Shown in pieces: positions 21,248-33,030 of a stretch of 34,384 nucleotides of DNA. The stretch spans positions 1-34,384 of the forward strand of contig CAITLA010000237.1 in assembly GCA_903893135.1 (NCBI GenBank). The letters run 5' to 3'. Below the pieces are notes generated by a model. That model saw only the letters and a program-made list of their open reading frames with translations. It had not been told where the DNA came from and ran no database searches. The translations under genes were made by a program, and so were the position numbers. Every line of letters begins with the position of its first letter. Position 1 is the first letter of the stretch. This DNA comes from an uncultured Syntrophaceae bacterium (GTDB lineage: Bacteria; Desulfobacterota; Syntrophia; Syntrophales; UBA2185).

Positions 21248-21562
21248 ATGAAACGCAAAAAAACAAAAGCTGTAGCTGTCGATCAAAGTGTTCAGGCAAA
21301 GCCATATTCACTTATTGAAGAGAATATGGAAAAAAAGCTTGAAGACATTTCTACAGTCCTCTGTTCAGCCGGTGACGGGAAAAAAAGGAAAAGCAGATTG
21401 CATGAAGAAGTTTTAATCATGGTTGAAAGATGTCTTTTCAAAATTGCCCTCAAGCGGAATGGTCATGTCAAGAGTGCTGCAGCCAATTACCTTGGAATCA
21501 ACAGGAATACATTCCAGAAAAAAATGGCCAAGCTGGGCATCAGTCGTGAAAATAAAAGTTAG
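21248..21562 (+). CDS. Fis-type helix-turn-helix protein
   Basis: The 104-aa product ends in a Fis-like DNA-binding helix-turn-helix (KSAAANYLGINRNTFQKKMA). It is preceded by a helical stretch (LHEEVLIMVERCLFKIALKR) as in Fis and the C-terminal domains of NtrC-type activators, but has no receiver or AAA+ domain. The N-terminal 45 residues are charged and low in recognisable structure. Its final codons overlap the start of the beta-helix gene by about 17 bp, so it is probably translated with that gene and may regulate the operon or act as a nucleoid protein. Confidence 0.82.
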   Translation: MKRKKTKAVAVDQSVQAKPYSLIEENMEKKLEDISTVLCSAGDGKKRKSRLHEEVLIMVERCLFKIALKRNGHVKSAAANYLGINRNTFQKKMAKLGISRENKS

Positions 21563-22805
21563 CCTGTCACATAACATAGTTAAATTGATGGAAAAGGGGG
21601 TCCATATACCGAGCCCCTTTTCTATTGATATCGGGGAAGAAATAGTTCTGGAGAGGATTGCCGGCGACGGCGTAGCCATCTATCCCGGAACCAGGATCTA
21701 TGGGTCAAAAACCCTGATCTCTCGGGGAACCAAGCTGGGATATGAAGCGCCGGCAACCATCGTCGATTGTCAAACCGGCCCGCATGTTGAGCTTAGAGGG
21801 GGATTTTTCAAATCATCTGTCTTTCTGCGAAGGGCAGCCGTGGCATGTGGCGCGCAGGTCCGTGAAGGATGTATCTTAGAAGAAGAGGCCAATGCGAATC
21901 ATGCAGTCGGATTAAAGCAGACCATACTCTTCCCGTTTGTAACCTTGGGCAGCCTCATCAACTTTTGTGACTGTTTCATGGCAGGCGGAATAAGCCGGAA
22001 AAATCACAGCGAAGTCGGCAGTTCATATATACATTTCAATTACACACCCAATCAAGACAAGGCCACACCTTCACTCATCGGCGACGTACCCAGAGGCGTC
22101 ATGTTAAACCAACCGCCCATTTTTTTGGGGGGTCAGGGAGGCCTGGTCGGTCCTGTCAGGATCGGTTACGGCAGCGTAATTACGGCGGGCGTGGTTTGCA
22201 GGAGGGATTATTCTGAAGGAAATAGATTAATAACGGAAAGTGACATTTCCACCCACGACAAGTCATTTCGCGTGGGTTTTTACAGAAATATCAAGCATCG
22301 CGTCTATAATAACATCTGCTACATCGCAAACCTCTTAGCCCTGAGACAGTGGTATGCCCACGTCCGGCAACCTTTTTTCCGACGGGAAGATATGGGTGAG
22401 GAGCTTTATGCCGGGGCCATGGACAATCTTGAAATTTCTATTGATGAAAGATTGAAGCGATTCAGAGACCTGTCTCAAAAAATGCAAACATCGATAGAGC
22501 TGGGCAGGAATGCCGCAAAAAAAGGCACACAGGAAAAGCTTCTCAAACAGAAAAAGGAGTTCAGCGAAAATTGGCCGAGGCTTGAAGAGATTTTCACCTC
22601 TGGGAAAGAAATAACTGTTGATCTCACGAATCGGGACTCATTCATCAAAGTCATTCATAACAGAATGAAAGATGAAAGCGATTACATAAGAGTCATTCAG
22701 GGCCTGGATAGAGATGCGTCAATCATGGGAACGGCATGGCTGCAGAACATTGTAGATCACATCACCCGTACGGCATTAATCCATTTGCCATCCTGCAATT
22801 CCTGA
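21546..22805 (+). CDS. Left-handed beta-helix protein (UDP-GlcNAc pyrophosphorylase/acyltransferase-like)
   Basis: The product is about 419 aa. Residues about 20-260 form hexapeptide-type turns (EIVLERIAGDGVAIYPGTRI, FVTLGSLINFCDCFMAGGIS, SYIHFNYTPNQDKATPSLIG, GGQGGLVGPVRIGYGSVITA). This matches the left-handed beta-helix of sugar-nucleotide acyltransferases such as the C-terminal half of GlmU. No nucleotidyltransferase Rossmann domain precedes it. The C-terminal 140 residues are helical and may be coiled coil. The start is uncertain: GTG at 21546 overlaps the HTH gene, and ATG at 21588 is an alternative; neither has a strong ribosome site. Position directly before a GlmS-like gene and pyrG suggests amino-sugar or nucleotide-sugar chemistry. 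The exact reaction is unknown. Confidence 0.75.
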   Translation: MKIKVSLSHNIVKLMEKGVHIPSPFSIDIGEEIVLERIAGDGVAIYPGTRIYGSKTLISRGTKLGYEAPATIVDCQTGPHVELRGGFFKSSVFLRRAAVACGAQVREGCILEEEANANHAVGLKQTILFPFVTLGSLINFCDCFMAGGISRKNHSEVGSSYIHFNYTPNQDKATPSLIGDVPRGVMLNQPPIFLGGQGGLVGPVRIGYGSVITAGVVCRRDYSEGNRLITESDISTHDKSFRVGFYRNIKHRVYNNICYIANLLALRQWYAHVRQPFFRREDMGEELYAGAMDNLEISIDERLKRFRDLSQKMQTSIELGRNAAKKGTQEKLLKQKKEFSENWPRLEEIFTSGKEITVDLTNRDSFIKVIHNRMKDESDYIRVIQGLDRDASIMGTAWLQNIVDHITRTALIHLPSCNS

Positions 22806-22846
22806 CGCCATCAATTAAACGAGATCGGGACTTTGATAATTATTAT

Positions 22847-25800
22847 ATGCAGATATTAAGACAATGGTACGCTGAAATAATCAGCTATCTTATGAAATGG
22901 AAGATATATGTAGGAGTTGATGTATACAGCACTCCCGAATACTCGATAGTCTTCTTCCCGCTAATTCCTGATGTCGTCTGCTGCGGCTTCGCCGGTATCC
23001 TGGCAATTAAAGGCATTGGCAAGCGCGAAGAAGGCAATCTCATAAAGAAGCTTGCCCAACTCTTCCGGAACATCAAGAAAAATGACATGAAGGCTCTCTC
23101 TACCGGTTCTGTAAGACCGGGCCAATATCTGGGGGGGGACCGATATCTGAAAGAAATGGAAAAAACGCTTTTCCAGTTAAAGACAGGCGTCGCATATCAG
23201 GAAATCTATTTCAAGCCTCTCACGGCCGGACAACTTTCAGACATTACGGAAGAGATGAAGGCATTTTTCCTGGACGAAGAAAAATGCCTTGAAGAAAACG
23301 CCGGCAACTTTCCGACAGAGGAGACGGAAACGATAAACAGCAGACATATCCTGATGAAGGATATTATCTGGGGTCTCGAGAAAGATGTACTCGAAAATAT
23401 AGAAAAAATCAGGGGGCTCTCGGGAGCGGGCAGCGTCAACGAAATATCTCCCGAATCATTTATAAAATATAAGAAAATAAATTTTCTTCTGAACTGCCTC
23501 GACAGGTTGGAGGTAAGGGGAAGAGATTCGGCGGGTATACAGATATCCTTCAGGCTCCCCGATACGGCCTCATTTGAGAATATTTTAAGCGCGCTCAAAG
23601 AGAAAGGCCTGTATGATGATTATTCCACGAGAATCCGTGCAGGCGACCTCATCAATGGTTCAATCTGTCTCTCTCCTGCGGTCCCGTCCAAGGGTAGTCC
23701 GCGGGGCAAAGGGATTGATCTCGCGTTCGTGTATAAAACATCATCCATCATCGGCGAGCTCGGTCAAAATGTCAGGGATCTGAGAAAATTCATCTCCCAC
23801 GATAAGGTCTTCTATGAATTATCCAGGGAGGAGACAGAATTTGAAACGTCAATATCCCACACAAGATGGGCATCAGTGGGTTCCATTACGGAAGAAAACT
23901 GCCATCCGATTAATAACTTTACCATGAACAGAAACAGCGGCCATGAAGATGCTGCATGGCCGGAGATCGTGAAAAACTACCCTTTCTATGGCGAGGGAAG
24001 CTGGTTCATTAACGTTATCCTTAATGGAGATATAGACAACTATCAATCCCTCCGAAATGCAATTGAAAAGGGAGAAGACCTTATTGCTTCACATATTACG
24101 ACTGACACGAAGATCATCCCCCTGCAAATTGAAAAGCATCTCTCTGCCGGTCATGATCTGGCTGAGGCGTTCAGATTGGCCGTAAACGCATTTGAAGGCT
24201 CCCATGCCATTGCCATGACCAGCAATACGGAGCCGGGAAAGGTGTTTCTTGCCCTCAAGGGCAGCGGGCAATCCATTTATGTAGGCCTAGCCCCTGAGGA
24301 GTATATATTTTCATCGGAACTTTATGGTCTCGTGGAGGGCACTCCTTTTTTCCTGAAGATGGACGGCGAAAGACCTTCCTCAGCCGATGATCCTGAAGCG
24401 TCAGGCCAGATATTTATCCTTGAGCAGAACTCTCAAGGGGGTCTTTCGGGGATTAGAACGCTTTTTTACGACGGGACTTCTCTCTCCATTGGAAACGATT
24501 CCGTGCAGAAGGCAGAAATCACCACCCGCGATATAGATCGAGGGAATTTTCCACACTACTTTCTAAAAGAAATATCTGAAGCAACTCTCTCCGTAAGAAA
24601 AACCCTGCGCGGCAAATATAGAATCTCAAAAAAAGAAAACGGAAGATATTCAGTTACCTTCAATCTTGGCCGGGACATCATACCGGAAAAGTGGAGACAG
24701 GCCCTCACCCGTGGAGAGATCAAGAGAATTATCGTAATAGGTCACGGTACTGCCGCCGTTGCCGGAGAGGCTGTTGCCGACGGAATGAACAGATATCTGA
24801 AAGGCACTCACATCAAAATTGACGCCAAGGTCGCATCGGAATTGAGCGGCTTTTTCCTGGAGGATGACCTGAAAGATACGCTGGTAATCCCCATCACGCA
24901 GTCGGGCACGACGACAGACACCAACCGTGCCGTAGCTATGGCTGTGGAACGGGGGGCGACGGTAATCGCCATTGTCAACAGGAGGCAATCTGACATAACA
25001 GGGAAGGCAAACGGAGTTTTTTATACGAGCGACGGCAGGGACATCGAAATGTCTGTGGCTTCAACCAAGGCATTTTACTCCCAGGTTGTGGCAGGTCATG
25101 TCCTTGCACTCTGTCTTGCCCAGCTTCTGAAGAATGTCTCCGACGACTTTATTGCAGATGAGCTTCACAACCTCGAACAGGCGCCTAACTTGATGAACAG
25201 GGTGATAGAGAAGAAAGGGCAAATCAAGCAATCAGTCGAACTACTGGCAAAAAAGAGAAGGTACTGGGCCGTCGTGGGAGACGGGCCTAATAAGGCGGCA
25301 GCAGATGAGATCAGGATAAAACTGAGCGAGCTGTGTTATAAAACGATATCGTCAGATTTTATAGAAAATAAGAAGCATATTGACCTCTCTGCCGAACCCT
25401 TGATCATAGTCTGTGCAGCCGGCAGCCCGGAAACTGTGACGGGAGACATCATCAAAGATGTAGCCATCTTCAAGGCGCACAGGGCGGGTGTTGTCGTTTT
25501 TGCAGATGAAGGTGAAGGCCGGTTCGACGGCGTTGCCGATGCCGTTGTTGAGGTACCCAGGGCAGCAATGCCCATGCCTGTAATCTTAAATACCCTGGCC
25601 GGACATTTATGGGGTTATTATGCTGCCTGCAGCATTAACGAAGACGCCATTTTCTTGCGGGAATTCAGGAGTCATCTCGATTATATAATGGCAGAACATG
25701 AGAAAAGAAATTATTCCATTTACGAGAGGCTGGCCGACAGAAATTACCGGAAGCTGGTCAGAGATTTCTCGACTGAATTCAATCAAAAAAGAACGGATGG

Positions 25801-26644
25801 CGCCTTTTCATTCACTAACGTGAATACCATATCCGATATAGTTCTTCTTCTCAAATATGCAGCCGGAAAACTGCCCCTTGAAGACTACTGGAGCGATTTC
25901 AAGAGTGAGGAGGGGCTGCCATCTCCGGTCGAGATGCTTGACATCTCTCTCGGCCACTCGATAGATGAGCTCTCCAGACCGATAGACGCCATCAGACATC
26001 AGGCGAAGACAGTGACGGTCGGAACAAGCAGGAAGGAACAGCCTCTCAGAGGTATTATTTTTGACATATTAAGACAACTTGAATTTTCGATCAAATCCAC
26101 TGTCACCAAGAATGTATTGACCATCGCAAGGATTCAGCCGTCCATTGCCGCGTTAAGCGGTTATACCCTCTATGACATTAATAATCTGGACGCTGAAGGA
26201 AATCCCGTGGATACTTCAACGATAACTGTTAAAAACAGAGGGGGCATCTCACTCACGATGAAATCGAGGACGGAAGGTTCGAGTAATCTCATGGGGACAA
26301 AAAGGACGATAGTCAGCACCGGCCACGTCTATATTGGCCGCGGAAAATCCGATGGCGCTTCCATTGTCGTTATTCCCCTTCTCGGGGATGGGAGAGGCGT
26401 AGGGAGCTTGCTTTTGATCCATGTGGAATTTAACGAATCACTTTCCGTGAAAGGAAAGAAAGAAGTCTTAGGCTACAAATTTAACGACATCCGCAATCTC
26501 GTTAACGAATATAATCTACCGTGGGATGACCGCTATCTGGAAAATATATCCACAGGTGTTCTCCTGGGCGAACCGGTGGAGGTTATTGCGGGTCAGATAA
26601 GAAAATCTCTGGGGGGAAACAGCGGCAACTCTCAGGCCAAGTAA
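22847..26644 (+). CDS. Giant GlmS-like glutaminase-SIS protein (glucosamine-6-phosphate synthase-like)
   Basis: The product is about 1265 aa, twice normal GlmS. Glutaminase motifs, numbered from this ATG: CGFAG at 46, RLEVRGRDSAG at 220, HTRWAS at 338, NGDIDNY at 393 and D420. SIS1 has QSGTTTDT at 685 and VASTKAF at 737. SIS2 keeps the isomerase residues equivalent to E. coli Lys485, Glu488 and His504 (K825, E828, H844). A tail QAKTVTV around K1054 matches the conserved GlmS C-terminus. Oddities: the nucleophile Cys is not N-terminal, about 170 extra residues split the glutaminase after it, about 110 more separate SIS2 from the tail, and about 205 follow the tail. ATGs at 22736 (inside the preceding gene) and 22892 are alternative starts. 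It probably makes glucosamine-6-phosphate or a related amino sugar. Confidence 0.85.
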   Translation: MQILRQWYAEIISYLMKWKIYVGVDVYSTPEYSIVFFPLIPDVVCCGFAGILAIKGIGKREEGNLIKKLAQLFRNIKKNDMKALSTGSVRPGQYLGGDRYLKEMEKTLFQLKTGVAYQEIYFKPLTAGQLSDITEEMKAFFLDEEKCLEENAGNFPTEETETINSRHILMKDIIWGLEKDVLENIEKIRGLSGAGSVNEISPESFIKYKKINFLLNCLDRLEVRGRDSAGIQISFRLPDTASFENILSALKEKGLYDDYSTRIRAGDLINGSICLSPAVPSKGSPRGKGIDLAFVYKTSSIIGELGQNVRDLRKFISHDKVFYELSREETEFETSISHTRWASVGSITEENCHPINNFTMNRNSGHEDAAWPEIVKNYPFYGEGSWFINVILNGDIDNYQSLRNAIEKGEDLIASHITTDTKIIPLQIEKHLSAGHDLAEAFRLAVNAFEGSHAIAMTSNTEPGKVFLALKGSGQSIYVGLAPEEYIFSSELYGLVEGTPFFLKMDGERPSSADDPEASGQIFILEQNSQGGLSGIRTLFYDGTSLSIGNDSVQKAEITTRDIDRGNFPHYFLKEISEATLSVRKTLRGKYRISKKENGRYSVTFNLGRDIIPEKWRQALTRGEIKRIIVIGHGTAAVAGEAVADGMNRYLKGTHIKIDAKVASELSGFFLEDDLKDTLVIPITQSGTTTDTNRAVAMAVERGATVIAIVNRRQSDITGKANGVFYTSDGRDIEMSVASTKAFYSQVVAGHVLALCLAQLLKNVSDDFIADELHNLEQAPNLMNRVIEKKGQIKQSVELLAKKRRYWAVVGDGPNKAAADEIRIKLSELCYKTISSDFIENKKHIDLSAEPLIIVCAAGSPETVTGDIIKDVAIFKAHRAGVVVFADEGEGRFDGVADAVVEVPRAAMPMPVILNTLAGHLWGYYAACSINEDAIFLREFRSHLDYIMAEHEKRNYSIYERLADRNYRKLVRDFSTEFNQKRTDGAFSFTNVNTISDIVLLLKYAAGKLPLEDYWSDFKSEEGLPSPVEMLDISLGHSIDELSRPIDAIRHQAKTVTVGTSRKEQPLRGIIFDILRQLEFSIKSTVTKNVLTIARIQPSIAALSGYTLYDINNLDAEGNPVDTSTITVKNRGGISLTMKSRTEGSSNLMGTKRTIVSTGHVYIGRGKSDGASIVVIPLLGDGRGVGSLLLIHVEFNESLSVKGKKEVLGYKFNDIRNLVNEYNLPWDDRYLENISTGVLLGEPVEVIAGQIRKSLGGNSGNSQAK

Positions 26645-26659
26645 ATTTCAGGAGCAATC

Positions 26660-28264
26660 ATGAAGACAAAATTTATTTTTGTAACCGGTGGCGTTCTCTC
26701 TTCCCTTGGCAAAGGTTTGGCTGCTGCTTCTATTGGCGCCCTTCTTGAATGCCGGGGTCTCAGGGTAACCAATCAAAAGCTGGATCCATATATCAATGTC
26801 GATCCCGGCACCCTTAGTCCATTCCAGCATGGCGAGGTTTTTGTGACGGACGATGGCGCGGAAACAGACCTTGACTTAGGCCACTATGAGCGATTTACCT
26901 CGACCCGCATGGCGAAGTGCAACAACCTTACGTCGGGTCAGGTATATTTTTCGGTAATTACAAAGGAAAGGAAGGGGGAATATCTGGGGAAGACCGTGCA
27001 GGTTATTCCCCATGTTACCGATGAAATCAAAGATTATATCAAGAGCTGCGCCGCCGGGTTCGACGTCGCGATCGTGGAGATCGGTGGAACCGTCGGAGAC
27101 ATTGAGGGCCAGCCCTTTCTGGAGGCAATCAGACAATTCCGCAATGAGTCCGGAAAACAAAACGCCATATTTATACACCTGACATGGGTCCCCTTCATAA
27201 AGACCGCCGGGGAGGTTAAGACAAAACCGACGCAGCACAGTGTGAAGGCCCTCCGTGAAATCGGTATTCAACCGGATATTCTGTTATGCCGCACGGAAGA
27301 TTTTCTCTCTGAAGACATCAAGGCCAAGATAGCTCTTTTCTGTAATGTGGAAGTTTCATCCGTATTTACGGCAAAGGATGTGCAGTGCATCTATGAAGTG
27401 CCAATCGTTTTTCACAAGGAAGGGGTGGACAATAAAATTGTCGACCTCTTAAACATCTGGACTGGCAGGCCGCATCTGGAGGCATGGGAGGATGTGGCAG
27501 ACAAGATTAAGAATCCTCCCCACGAAGTGTGTATCGCCATAGTGGGCAAATATGTGAATTTGACGGATTCCTACAAGAGCCTCAATGAAGCATTAGTGCA
27601 TGGAGGCATCGCAAACAACTGCCGGGTAAACCTGCGTTTTGTCGATTCGGAAAAGATCGAAAAAGAAGGTATTGGTAATCTTCTTGACGACGCTGATGGC
27701 GTACTTGTGCCCGGAGGATTCGGAGAGAGGGGCATTGAGGGAATGATCACTGCCATTCAATTTGCCCGTGAGAACAAGATTCCGTATTTCGGCATCTGCC
27801 TGGGCATGCAGCTCGCCGTCGTGGAATTCGCCCGGCACGTATGCAGACTCGAAAGGGCAAACAGTTCCGAATTTGACAAGGAAACGGCGTATCCGGTAAT
27901 CGATTATCTGCCCGAGCAGAGAGACATCAAGGAGATGGGCGCAACAATGAGGCTGGGGGCCTACACCTGCCTCTTAGAGGCCGGGTCTTTCGCACTTGAT
28001 GCTTACGATGTCAGTGAAATCAGTGAAAGACACAGGCACCGTTACGAAGTGAACAACAGCTTCAGAGATATCCTTGTGGAGAAGGGGCTCTCCATTACAG
28101 GCACCTCGCCTGATCGCCGTCTTGTCGAGATTGTTGAGATCAAAGACCACCCGTGGTTTCTGGGATGTCAGTTTCATCCAGAATTCAAGTCGCGGCCTAC
28201 GAGCCCCCATCCGCTCTTCAGTAGATTTATCGGTGCGGCATTGAAGGGACATCTGCAGAAATAG
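26660..28264 (+). CDS. pyrG: CTP synthase
   Basis: CTP synthase aminates UTP to CTP with glutamine and ATP. The 534-aa product has the N-terminal synthase domain ([38 protein letters not shown]) and a C-terminal glutaminase domain with the nucleophile in [17 protein letters not shown] and a late [15 protein letters not shown]. Length and motifs are normal. An AGGAG ribosome site is 5 nt upstream. It begins 16 bp after the GlmS-like gene, which argues for one transcript serving nucleotide and nucleotide-sugar supply. Confidence 0.98.
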
Positions 28265-28390: not shown

Positions 28391-28620
28391 TAAATAGGGA
28401 CCGTCGTATCCTGCAAGCCACCTCCATTTCGTTTAAATACAATTTCGTTATCACTCCATAGAAAAATCACATTCTTGTTTCTTTGTCGCGATTTCAACCA
28501 ACAGTGAGAGAAGACAAATAGTCCGCATATCCAATGGATTGTAGATGTAAACGCACTTCTTTGCATCTGGCATATATCTTGAGTTACAAAACTTCGAAAA
28601 TCAGATCAGGAGGAATTGTG

Positions 28621-29553
28621 ATGAAAAGATATATCTTCGTGAGAAATGCTTTTTTAAGTGTGATTGTGACTCTGCTCTTACTGACAGTGGGTGTGGCCTC
28701 CATTTTGGCTGAGGAGCAGAAACCCGCGGCAACTCCTGCCCCTGCAGCAGCAGCGGCTGCGCCTGCGGAAGATAAACCCACCGGTTCATTATCCATTTCC
28801 GGTTTGTCAAAATATGTATGGCGGGGATATGAAAACACCAAAAACAGCGTTGTAGTTCAACCTTCCCTGACAGTTGGTTACAAAGGGTTTAGCGCCAATA
28901 TATGGGGAAACATTGATACAAAGCCCTACTCGACAACAGACGCCAGTTATTCCAGCACCTGGACGGAAACGGATCTTGCTCTCTCTTATACCAAGACGTT
29001 TGGTATTTTAAACGCCGGTCTTGGTTACATCTATTATGGCTTGCAGGCTCCGAATGCCGGCGCTATAAAACCTCTTGATGCACAGGAAATATTTTTCACC
29101 TTAGGTCTTAATACGCTCCTGACGCCGACTTTGACTGCCTATAAGGAAATCGATCATTATCACCAGTATTATTTCCTGTTGGGGATTTCCCATACTTTTG
29201 AATTCAACAAAACCATTTCTCTACAATTGAGTGCATCCGCCAGTTATCTCCTCAGCGACTATGCCGATGCGACCCTCTATGGCGTCAATGCATCGTATGG
29301 CGGGTATCCAAAGTTTGATAACAATTATCAGGCGACAAACGACAAATTCAGTAATTTCCACGATGGTGTGATCACGGCGAGCCTTCCCATCAATGTGGCA
29401 AAATATCTAACCGTAGCCCCAACAGTATCCTACTCCTTCCCCCTATCAAGCGATGCAAAAAATGAGATTAAGGCTCGTGGCAAATTGACTAATCCGGCCG
29501 ATAACGACAGCAGTTACGTTTACGGCGGGCTGACTGTTACCTTAAGCTTCTGA
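28621..29553 (+). CDS. Outer-membrane beta-barrel protein, TorF-like porin
   Basis: The 310-aa product has a signal peptide (SVIVTLLLLTVGVASILAEE), an Ala/Pro linker (TPAPAAAAAAPAED), then alternating beta strands and a terminal Phe (YGGLTVTLSF), as in outer-membrane barrels. The opening SGLSKYVWRGYENTKNSVVV matches the gcw_chp/TorF putative porin family, whose members carry a similar S-x-Y-x-WRG segment. The ATG at 28621 is 5 nt past AGGAGG. The solute is unknown. It converges with the TPR-CHAT gene. Confidence 0.82.
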   Translation: MKRYIFVRNAFLSVIVTLLLLTVGVASILAEEQKPAATPAPAAAAAAPAEDKPTGSLSISGLSKYVWRGYENTKNSVVVQPSLTVGYKGFSANIWGNIDTKPYSTTDASYSSTWTETDLALSYTKTFGILNAGLGYIYYGLQAPNAGAIKPLDAQEIFFTLGLNTLLTPTLTAYKEIDHYHQYYFLLGISHTFEFNKTISLQLSASASYLLSDYADATLYGVNASYGGYPKFDNNYQATNDKFSNFHDGVITASLPINVAKYLTVAPTVSYSFPLSSDAKNEIKARGKLTNPADNDSSYVYGGLTVTLSF

Positions 29554-29841: not shown

Positions 29842-32800
29842 TTAACTACCACTGCCAGGATCACCCATCAGGACAAACGGTGCCCAAAACAGGGGATGGG
29901 CATAGCTGGCGACGATTTTACCTGTGGTCTGTTCTTGCAGAGTCTCGCTGTCGATCAGATTCAACATGGATTTCCTTAGTGCCTGTGAGCGGGTTAATCT
30001 ATTGTCACGGACCTCGAGTTCGAAAAGCCTCGTGATCAACTTCCTGGCTGATGTTGTTTCGACGGGATACATACTGGCCAGGATTGCTCGGCTGCCGGCA
30101 TAGAAAAAGGCCTGACCGAGTCCCGAAAGGGCTTCCGCGCCAGCACCGCTCGCGGCTCCCGTGTTACACGCCGAAAGAACGATCCAATCGGCATTCATTT
30201 TCAACTTCATGATTTCTGTCATCGTCAACAACCCATCCTCCTTATCTCCTGTGACAGAAGGCGAGGACAGTGCCAGGGCCGGCTGATCCAAACCATCCAC
30301 GTCACCGGGAACCAGGGCATGTGTAGCGAAGACAATGACCTTCCGGTCCGACAGGATCATTATTTTAATCTGATGTTTGGAAGCTTGCTCTCGTAAAAAA
30401 ACATCTTTGGTCAGATCGGCATTCAATACGCGGGCTACGTTTCTGATCTCTTCTGCTGTGTCGCGCAGACGGTTCAGATTTTCAGTTTGAATTGAGGTGA
30501 TCTTCTGATTATCAAGGGTTCCCTTCGGGGTGATACGGATACCCCTGACCTGAACACGATCTGCCGTTATGTAATTCGCAGAACCCCCTTCTTGAATTTT
30601 ACGTTCTTTATCCCCGCTCTGTTCTGTTTTCAGCAACGCCAGTTGTTCCCGGTTAAAGAGGGGATCGCCGAATCCCAGAAATGCCTTACGTCCAGGATCA
30701 CCGGGCGGAAGCGTCCTCAGATTAACAAGCGCCGACACGGAAGGCTCCATGGTAATAGAAAACTTGCGGATCAACCAGGGTGTCTGCCGGTAACGGGAAA
30801 ACAGTTCTCCTCGATCGCCGGCAAGTTGAAATGGAGCTGTCGGTAGAATAGCAAAGGGAATCTGATCAAGGGGGCTGTTGGTAATAATGAAAAGATCTGT
30901 GGCATCATTCAATGCCGACTCCACCGGGGAAAACAATTTAGTATAAAGATCATACGCCAGAGAGACATTAAAATCGGGTATATCTCCCAGCGTCTCCGGC
31001 TTCGGGTCAAGTGATTTTCTCAGTTTAGCCACAATGGGAATAAGAACGTCTCTGCCTATGGCAGCGGCGGCAAATATTGCGTCTCCTTTAGACGGAATGG
31101 CCCAAACAAAGGTCTGATCTTTCGTTGTATAAAGGGACAGGAGAACTTCCCCAGGCCGCAGGAAACCCTGGATGTAAGGAATGCTGCGCGGTGCTGGATT
31201 GACAAAATCGGCATATCTGGGGAAGCGTTTTTTTGTTTCTGCCAAAAAGGAGTCCCGTGCACGGCGCAGATTTTCAATATTAAGTTGGAGGTTCTGGACG
31301 GCTTTTGGATCATGTTCACCGGCCGGAGCCGCCAGAAGATCAAGTACCGTGTTTTCCATCACAACGAGCTGCCGGTCTGCGTCCTGTTCTTTCCGAACCA
31401 GATCCGCCAGTTGTGGCTCAGTAACGGCGGCACGGGCGCTGCTTGCCACGAGAGCGCCCTGGACGCTCCTGCTTCTATTTGCTTCTGCCAGCTTGAATGA
31501 TGTCCCCACCGTATCGATCCCAAGTTCTTTTTCGATGGAAGTACCCTTAATTTTCACCAACAGACCGATATAGTCATCAATAATGGTTCGCCGCAGTTTC
31601 TTGCGATGGGCAAATTCTCCTTCTTCAGCCCGTGATTGCATAAGTATGTCCGTCGCGGTGGAGAGGTCCTGAACTGCTTCACGAAGGTGATTCAAGTGTT
31701 CCTGGGCCATGCCTCTGAGTGCCAGCATCTCAGCCGTCCGTTCGTGCTTTTCGCCAAATCGTTTTCGAGAATTCTCATAGTTCTGCGACGCGAGTCTCAA
31801 CGCTTCATCATAACGGCCAGTCATGAGCATGGATAAGATCATCATTGAATTCTGCGTAAAAGACCTTTCATAGAGGAACTTATTCTCCTTCATGCCGGTT
31901 CTGGCCAGATCGTACTGTATCATCGCGCCGGTGTAATCTTCCTTTGCTGCCAAGATATCTCCTTTTGTGACCCTGGCAAGGCCCATAATATAGGAATCGG
32001 CAGATGTCCCGGCAGCCTCAAGAATACGGATGGCGGCATCGGACAACCTCTCCGCCTCTTCCAGACGACCTTGTGCCTGTAAAATGCGGGTAAGCAATAT
32101 GATCGCTTGGCCGAGCAGCGCCGATTCTTTTCCGGCATGCGCCAATGAGGCCATCAGTATCTTTCTGGACTCTACCTCCGCCTCCATCAGGCGCTGTTGA
32201 TTCAATAAATTCCGTGCATGCATCATATCTAGAGAGATTAGAAATAACGGGTAATTTTCCATGAGCACACGCCCAGGCCCTAATCCGAGACTGTTGATGT
32301 TTCGATACTGGACCTCGGCCGCAGCGTAACTTCCCTGTGCCTCCAGAATATTGGCATCCATGAGCATCGGATGTAGATTACACCAGAATCGTGCTTCCGA
32401 ATCTAAGCTGGTAATATAACTGCGGCAAACAAACTCAGAACTTCGCTTGGCGCTTTTCGCAGATTCCAGATCACCGACCATGGCGTAGACATGGACCAGG
32501 ATAGCGTTTGCAAGAAGGCTGCTGTATCGAGCGCCAGATGATGAGATAAATGGCGGATACTTCGAACTTTCTTTATATAATTCAATTGCTTTTTGAAAAT
32601 TACCATAAATGCTTTCTATTGCACCGAGACGGCCCTTAATGAATCCGTCGGAATCGTCCATAATACCATAAGACAAAGCTTTCTGTAGATCATTCCTTGC
32701 CTGAATATAGCGACCCAGTTCAAATGCGGCCTCCCCGCGGTCCCGGTAAAATCCTTTCAGTGTTCTTGTATTCTTTGTGTCAAGCGTGGTTGCATCGGTC

Positions 32801-33030
32801 TGTGCCTTGAATTTCTCCGTGATCCGGGTCTCGAACTGACCAGGCTGATCCAGAACGGACAGAATGTCGTCAATCCTGCGGGGTGGCGGGGTGAAGGCTG
32901 GTGATTCCGCCATTGAGATGGAAATCTTTTTCGCTTCCTCCAGAGACATTTTTGTTGCGCAGCCCGGAAAGAAGATCAGTGTTAGAAGGGCAAAAATGAA
33001 AAAGTTCAACTCATTTTTGCTTATAGTCAT
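29842..33030 (-). CDS. TPR-CHAT lipoprotein (caspase-like peptidase fold)
   Basis: The 1062-aa product starts with a lipoprotein-type signal (FFIFALLTLIFFPGC, lipid Cys about 24). Residues about 80-480 are helical TPR-like repeats (for example AAFELGRYIQARNDLQKAL and ILQAQGRLEEAERLSDAAIR). The C-terminal third is a CHAT domain with both expected catalytic residues: His904 in VIVFATHALVPGD and Cys955 in DWIVLSACNTGA, followed by GLGQAFFYAGSRAILASMYP and AHPLFWAPFVLMGDPG. The start has AGGAGG 7 nt upstream. CHAT proteins are clan CD peptidases related to caspases; some act in defence with TPR sensors, many have unknown targets. Export to the envelope is inferred from the signal and fits the presence of LolA. 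No gasdermin or other recognised CHAT substrate lies nearby. Confidence 0.9.
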   Translation of the reverse strand: MTISKNELNFFIFALLTLIFFPGCATKMSLEEAKKISISMAESPAFTPPPRRIDDILSVLDQPGQFETRITEKFKAQTDATTLDTKNTRTLKGFYRDRGEAAFELGRYIQARNDLQKALSYGIMDDSDGFIKGRLGAIESIYGNFQKAIELYKESSKYPPFISSSGARYSSLLANAILVHVYAMVGDLESAKSAKRSSEFVCRSYITSLDSEARFWCNLHPMLMDANILEAQGSYAAAEVQYRNINSLGLGPGRVLMENYPLFLISLDMMHARNLLNQQRLMEAEVESRKILMASLAHAGKESALLGQAIILLTRILQAQGRLEEAERLSDAAIRILEAAGTSADSYIMGLARVTKGDILAAKEDYTGAMIQYDLARTGMKENKFLYERSFTQNSMMILSMLMTGRYDEALRLASQNYENSRKRFGEKHERTAEMLALRGMAQEHLNHLREAVQDLSTATDILMQSRAEEGEFAHRKKLRRTIIDDYIGLLVKIKGTSIEKELGIDTVGTSFKLAEANRSRSVQGALVASSARAAVTEPQLADLVRKEQDADRQLVVMENTVLDLLAAPAGEHDPKAVQNLQLNIENLRRARDSFLAETKKRFPRYADFVNPAPRSIPYIQGFLRPGEVLLSLYTTKDQTFVWAIPSKGDAIFAAAAIGRDVLIPIVAKLRKSLDPKPETLGDIPDFNVSLAYDLYTKLFSPVESALNDATDLFIITNSPLDQIPFAILPTAPFQLAGDRGELFSRYRQTPWLIRKFSITMEPSVSALVNLRTLPPGDPGRKAFLGFGDPLFNREQLALLKTEQSGDKERKIQEGGSANYITADRVQVRGIRITPKGTLDNQKITSIQTENLNRLRDTAEEIRNVARVLNADLTKDVFLREQASKHQIKIMILSDRKVIVFATHALVPGDVDGLDQPALALSSPSVTGDKEDGLLTMTEIMKLKMNADWIVLSACNTGAASGAGAEALSGLGQAFFYAGSRAILASMYPVETTSARKLITRLFELEVRDNRLTRSQALRKSMLNLIDSETLQEQTTGKIVASYAHPLFWAPFVLMGDPGSGS

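Follow-up and report, generated by a model that had tools for sequence, protein, structure and literature searches.

GlmS, a drug target, makes the first precursor for both peptidoglycan and LPS. Ntn glutaminases require the free amine of their catalytic Cys, and glutamate synthase (GltB), a class-II amidotransferase, loses a leader so that its Cys becomes the N-terminus. To our knowledge, no propeptide is known in GlmS/GFAT. The propeptides of PurF are removed autocatalytically (PMC7056826). The stretch of DNA analysed here (the window; 34,384 nucleotides of a contig from an uncultured Syntrophaceae bacterium) encodes a giant GlmS-like protein, which shares with the GlmS/GFAT enzymes (TIGR01135; PDB 2j6h, 6r4e) an identically ordered set of a glutaminase and two SIS domains, the overall fold, all the main catalytic residues and a catalytic Lys within an AKTVTV tail. 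It differs from these enzymes in its double length, in three insertions and about 205 residues following the tail, in the nucleophile Cys, which in most members is residue 46, in the replacement of some phosphate-loop residues, and in family-model scores that fall well under the cut-off. With the propeptide-bearing PurF of the Bacillus subtilis type (PMC7056826) it shares the class-II amidotransferase and, putatively, the exposure of the Cys through removal of a leader, whereas PurF and GltB have other synthase halves and do not carry the leader motif G..13..FP..7..C. The favoured reading, which is held with good confidence, is that the protein is a housekeeping glutamine:fructose-6-phosphate amidotransferase of double size, the leader of which would be cleaved off before Cys46, and which has displaced the canonical GlmS. 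No published description of such a giant GlmS family was found in the open-access literature.

Architecture of the giant GlmS

The giant GlmS gene is located on the forward strand (22847–26644), with its frame extending from the ATG at 22847 to a stop ending at 26644, and encodes 1265 amino acids. It is matched by the GlmS models TIGR01135 (E 2.7e-68, 230.9 bits) and NF001484 (E 2.3e-73, 247.6 bits), with neither match reaching the curated cut-off (418.05 bits and 381, respectively). An AlphaFold model spanning residues 17–1216 (mean pLDDT 78.5, pTM 0.69) is matched over both domains by the whole structures of human GFAT-1 and E. coli GlmS (best E 6e-24), which speaks in favour of a GlmS. Given E-values in the range of 1e-68 to 1e-73 for the GlmS models, and an architecture which is kept in dozens of genomes, the resemblance is not due to chance.

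All the GlmS catalytic motifs listed in the first-pass annotation could be located in the sequence, on the forward strand throughout. The glutaminase nucleophile, Cys46 (22982–22984; in CCGFAGIL), aligns with Cys1 of the canonical GlmS and is invariant in all complete homologues. The remaining glutaminase motifs (23516–24106) are RGRDSAG (residues 224–230), HTRWAS (338–343), NCHP, LNGD (392–395) and TDTK (Asp420), and the Cys, RG.DSAG, HTRWA, NG and Asp of a GlmS glutaminase are all represented, with the matches to the GATase_6/7 models falling slightly under the cut-off. The first SIS domain (24722–25111; PF01380, E 7.7e-14) contains QSGTTTDT (residues 685–692), while the second (25280–25638), aligned to the canonical GlmS, contains Lys825, Glu828 and His844 in invariant columns, so that the QSG.T.DT, Lys/Glu and His residues of the two GlmS SIS domains are likewise in place. 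The catalytic tail RPIDAIRHQAKTVTV (25976–26020), with Lys1054 in HQAKTVTV, is invariant and aligns with the RNLAKSVTVE of the canonical GlmS. Among 21 aligned homologues (44–95 % identity), all of these glutaminase residues from Cys46 to Asp420, as well as QSGTTTDT, VASTKAF, Lys825, Glu828, His844 and HQAKTVTV with Lys1054, are invariant or nearly so. Changes relative to the canonical enzyme occur in some substrate contacts, with the serine of GTS replaced by Ala (GTA) and SQSGETADT replaced by TQSGTTTDT; like the scores under the curated cut-offs, these changes count against the favoured reading. In addition, the canonical KHGPIAL aligns with KKHIDLS.

The canonical GlmS of a related genome served as the alignment reference for the departures in length, and the insertions which had been reported in the first-pass annotation are evident against it. 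The glutaminase is divided by an insertion of about 150 residues (about residues 58–208; 23018–23470) that follows the Cys strand and precedes RGRDSAG; its residues are predicted to be all-helical (mostly pLDDT 85–95), and a further 50–60 residues are found ahead of HTRWAS. About 110 extra residues separate the second SIS domain from the tail (about residues 932–1043; 25640–25975) and are again predicted as helices. The tail does not form the C-terminus of the protein, with about 205–207 residues lying beyond it (207 in the alignment to the canonical GlmS). These are predicted to form an alpha/beta domain (residues 1061–1265; 26027–26641), in which helices surround a five-stranded sheet (pLDDT mostly 84–92). 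Searches of the C-terminal 205 residues against Pfam and PDB sequences revealed no relative, in agreement with the new domain postulated in the first-pass annotation. A GAF identity was considered but found no significant support in the Pfam and fold searches. Foldseek returned PAS/Cache/GAF-type sensors, and since these matches are weak (best E 0.03, low TM-scores), a regulatory, ligand-sensing role for this domain is a guess. In more general terms, this domain, like the helical insertions, probably serves in assembly or allosteric control.

The extension preceding the nucleophile Cys

Residues 1–45 (22847–22981, forward strand) constitute an N-terminal extension which is a probable propeptide on the basis of its conservation at fixed spacing and the existence of three lineages with Met-Cys in its place. 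Across 48 distinct homologues, the 30 residues preceding the Cys can be aligned without gaps, with Pro(-8) present in 48/48, Phe(-9) in 47/48, Gly(-23) in 45/48 and Trp(-28) in 26/48; conservation ahead of the nucleophile, as would be expected of an Ntn propeptide, is thus found. A point against the favoured reading is that the residue at position -1 varies (Cys in 21, Phe in 11, Ala in seven and Asn in four homologues, with others in the remainder), so that a specific protease site cannot be assigned.

Three lineages within the family lack the extension, and in these the Cys occupies position 2 of the gene product. These comprise family f12, where three members start with MCGFAG (L012, L013 and L039), the genome G196 of family f86 (L087), where the start reads ATG TGC GGA two codons past the stop of the upstream frame, and family f73, where L066 and L068 read MCGIAGF and L067 reads VCGIAGF. 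Given its well-supported branches, the tree requires three changes between the extended and Met-Cys forms, so that at least some of these changes were independent. Selenocysteine was also considered, as one in-frame TGA is flagged in some of the homologues, and was rejected: the flagged stops in L087 and L088 do not lie inside the enzyme, being found at the gene ends or, in L087, just before the ATG-TGC start.

Since the extension is conserved without indels, and the leaderless lineages begin exactly with Met-Cys, propeptide removal provides the best reading of the extension, as had been suspected in the first-pass annotation. From this pattern, and by analogy with the leader-bearing amidotransferases, we infer that the extension is cleaved off before Cys46. 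The PurF of the host genome (G000:C71:20700-22700, L098) also has residues preceding its catalytic Cys (...SQYFIAESKPKEE-CGVFAVYG), as does PurF of the propeptide type. The simplest reading of the sequences is that the working enzyme needs an N-terminal Cys, which would be obtained through removal of the methionine in the Met-Cys forms or of the leader in the others.

An alternative is that the extension is retained as a structural strand pair, leaving Cys46 internal, with glutamine hydrolysis weak or absent and free ammonia used in the manner of a reversed deaminase. The good conservation of the extension sequence, and its prediction as ordered strands packed on the protein (pLDDT 74–84), would fit such a role. 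However, Ntn glutaminases need a free Cys amine, the invariance of Cys46 and of all the glutaminase residues would be hard to explain without glutaminase activity, and the lineages which lack the extension begin precisely at Met-Cys. Retention is thus considered unlikely, and removal of the extension as a propeptide is preferred.

Distribution of the giant and canonical GlmS

Relatives of the giant GlmS are encoded in 56 of 60 related genomes, mostly of the host order, usually as a single copy. A canonical GlmS scoring over the cut-off is found in 0/60 of these genomes, as opposed to 14/14 control genomes. The named relatives belong to Syntrophaceae/Syntrophales and other deltaproteobacterial metagenome-assembled genomes (MAGs). 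Four SIS matches occur in the host genome (99.99 % complete), three of which, besides that of the giant, are located in frames of 201–349 amino acids, and the SIS profile search revealed no second GlmS candidate in this genome; the search for a standard GlmS elsewhere, which had been recommended in the first-pass annotation, thus proved negative. Given that the host genome and the whole order are without another GlmS, the giant GlmS can be regarded as the housekeeping enzyme. The earlier proposal of a dedicated amino-sugar synthase accordingly holds as far as a GlmS-type synthase is concerned, but not for a special pathway.

The wider phylum was sampled through 345 genomes that are at least 90 % complete. 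The giant GlmS, for which all calls exceed 670 bits and every other match falls below 151 bits, is encoded in 44 of these, and a canonical GlmS over the cut-off in 280. Only one sampled genome, G214, carries both forms (C29 and C30; L069 and L076), a state which is possibly a snapshot of an exchange. Carriers and non-carriers of the giant are intermixed inside four families (f51, f66, f67 and f73) and even within a single genus, g100, where the giant is found in G124 and G378 and the canonical form in G362. Neither form is encoded in G012 and G056, both of the host order, or in G291 (f49), all of which are at least 97 % complete; the cases of G012 and G056, which are well assembled, speak against the favoured reading, as another source of glucosamine-6-phosphate (GlcN-6-P) is possible there, or the gene may have been missed. 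These counts derive from a sample made up mostly of MAGs, which covers one phylum outside the host order. The near-complete mutual exclusion of the two forms is the best evidence that they perform the same essential job. As judged from these distributions, the giant has taken the place of the canonical GlmS in the host order, as it has in isolated lineages elsewhere in the phylum, and from this displacement we infer that the giant forms GlcN-6-P from fructose-6-phosphate and glutamine.

The divergence of the phosphate-loop residues (GTA for GTS, TQSGTTTDT) and the large new C-terminal domain could also be accommodated by an enzyme which makes another amino sugar, destined for a special polysaccharide. 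Such a product is very improbable, considering the near-perfect mutual exclusion with the canonical GlmS, the single copy across the order, and the presence of GlmM in the same genome, together with the fact that, without the giant, these genomes would have no GlmS. With GlcN-6-P retained as the preferred product, an even chance is given to a more extensive proposal, namely that this is a GlmS family not described before, whose leader cleaves itself off and whose C-terminal domain, itself new, acts as an allosteric sensor regulating the supply of amino sugars, and that exchange of genes has repeatedly put it in place of the canonical enzyme across the Desulfobacterota.

Neighbouring genes and proposed pathway

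The giant GlmS gene is preceded on the forward strand by a gene for a beta-helix protein (21546–22805; GTG start at 21546), the start of which is overlapped by the gene for a small Fis-type HTH protein (21248–21562, forward strand; PF02954, E 1.1e-11), and is followed by an ORF named from sequence reading as pyrG (CTP synthase; 26660–28264, forward strand). The first-pass description of the upstream gene as a sugar acyltransferase-like gene without a nucleotidyltransferase domain was accurate, and the gene can be further specified, in that it corresponds to GlmU's acetyltransferase half, extended by a helical domain; GlmU models match through their C-terminal half only (E 1.6e-12) and the PDB profile matches are all to GlmU. 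The left-handed beta-helix is shared with the GlmU C-terminal acetyltransferase, whereas the uridyltransferase half is missing, a C-terminal helical domain is added and the active-site region is rearranged. In this protein the catalytic-His stretch of GlmU, GHLSYLGD, reads LGSLINFCD, with invariant Ser and Asn, and new invariant His residues are found in KNHSEVGSSYIHFNYTP. Further downstream in the window are a 339-amino-acid ORF without a Pfam match (28534–29553, forward strand) and a TPR and CHAT-domain protein of 1062 amino acids (29842–33030, reverse strand). No Rfam element, such as the riboswitch/ribozyme control of glmS, was matched anywhere in the window, and promoter and terminator patterns near the giant GlmS gene were at chance level.

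A canonical GlmU is found in 0/60 of the order genomes, most of which carry a separate uridyltransferase of about 250 amino acids (G000:C179:538-1254 in the host genome). The beta-helix gene occurs in 55/60 order genomes and in 27/31 carriers of the giant outside the order. The pairing of the two genes suggested in the first-pass annotation is, however, frequent rather than constant; because the beta-helix gene is often distant from that of the giant, and is found alongside a canonical GlmS as well, an obligate partnership was rejected, and the pairing is a common arrangement of genes belonging to a single pathway. Similarly, a canonical GlmU scores over the cut-off in 4/44 carriers of the giant, and in just 169/345 genomes overall, so that a split GlmU is not exclusive to the carriers.

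In the proposed mechanism, the chain would be synthesised with its conserved leader of about 45 residues. Translation from a non-standard start codon beside the Cys, with the extension never made as protein, might be entertained given the lack of a clear ribosome-binding site before the ATG at 22847, but has hardly any probability, considering that the window has GTC GTC TGC directly upstream of Cys46 while relatives have other codons there, that the amino acids at -28 to -1 are conserved without indels, and that the extension frame is open in relatives too. A standard start at the Cys was likewise ruled out, as there is no ATG, GTG or TTG near Cys46 in the window, which confirms the distance between nucleophile and start highlighted in the first-pass annotation. 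Past the stop of the preceding gene, start codons are limited to the ATGs at 22847 and 22892, of which close relatives share just the first. By its conservation, the extension is genuine coding sequence. This translated leader would then be cut off in front of Cys46, most likely autocatalytically, along the class-II (Ntn) route that PurF and glutamate synthase are known to take. The alpha-amine of the Cys would thereby be freed, and glutamine would be hydrolysed by Cys46. The ammonia would be delivered to the pair of SIS domains, and fructose-6-phosphate would be isomerised and aminated there with the participation of Lys1054 of the C-terminal tail. The resulting GlcN-6-P would be converted to UDP-GlcNAc by GlmM, which is encoded in the host genome, and by the split GlmU, consisting of the beta-helix acetyltransferase and the stand-alone uridyltransferase.

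On present sequence evidence, the giant and mostly leader-bearing GlmS is a variant of the known GlmS kind, which replaces an essential enzyme in Syntrophus-like bacteria and scattered relatives. As it scores under the thresholds of the standard models, annotation and pathway tools will report GlmS as missing from such bacteria. Should cleavage be confirmed, a propeptide-processed branch would be added to the GlmS family. The repeated return to Met-Cys after loss of the leader represents a natural experiment on the need of Ntn amidotransferases for a free N-terminal Cys.
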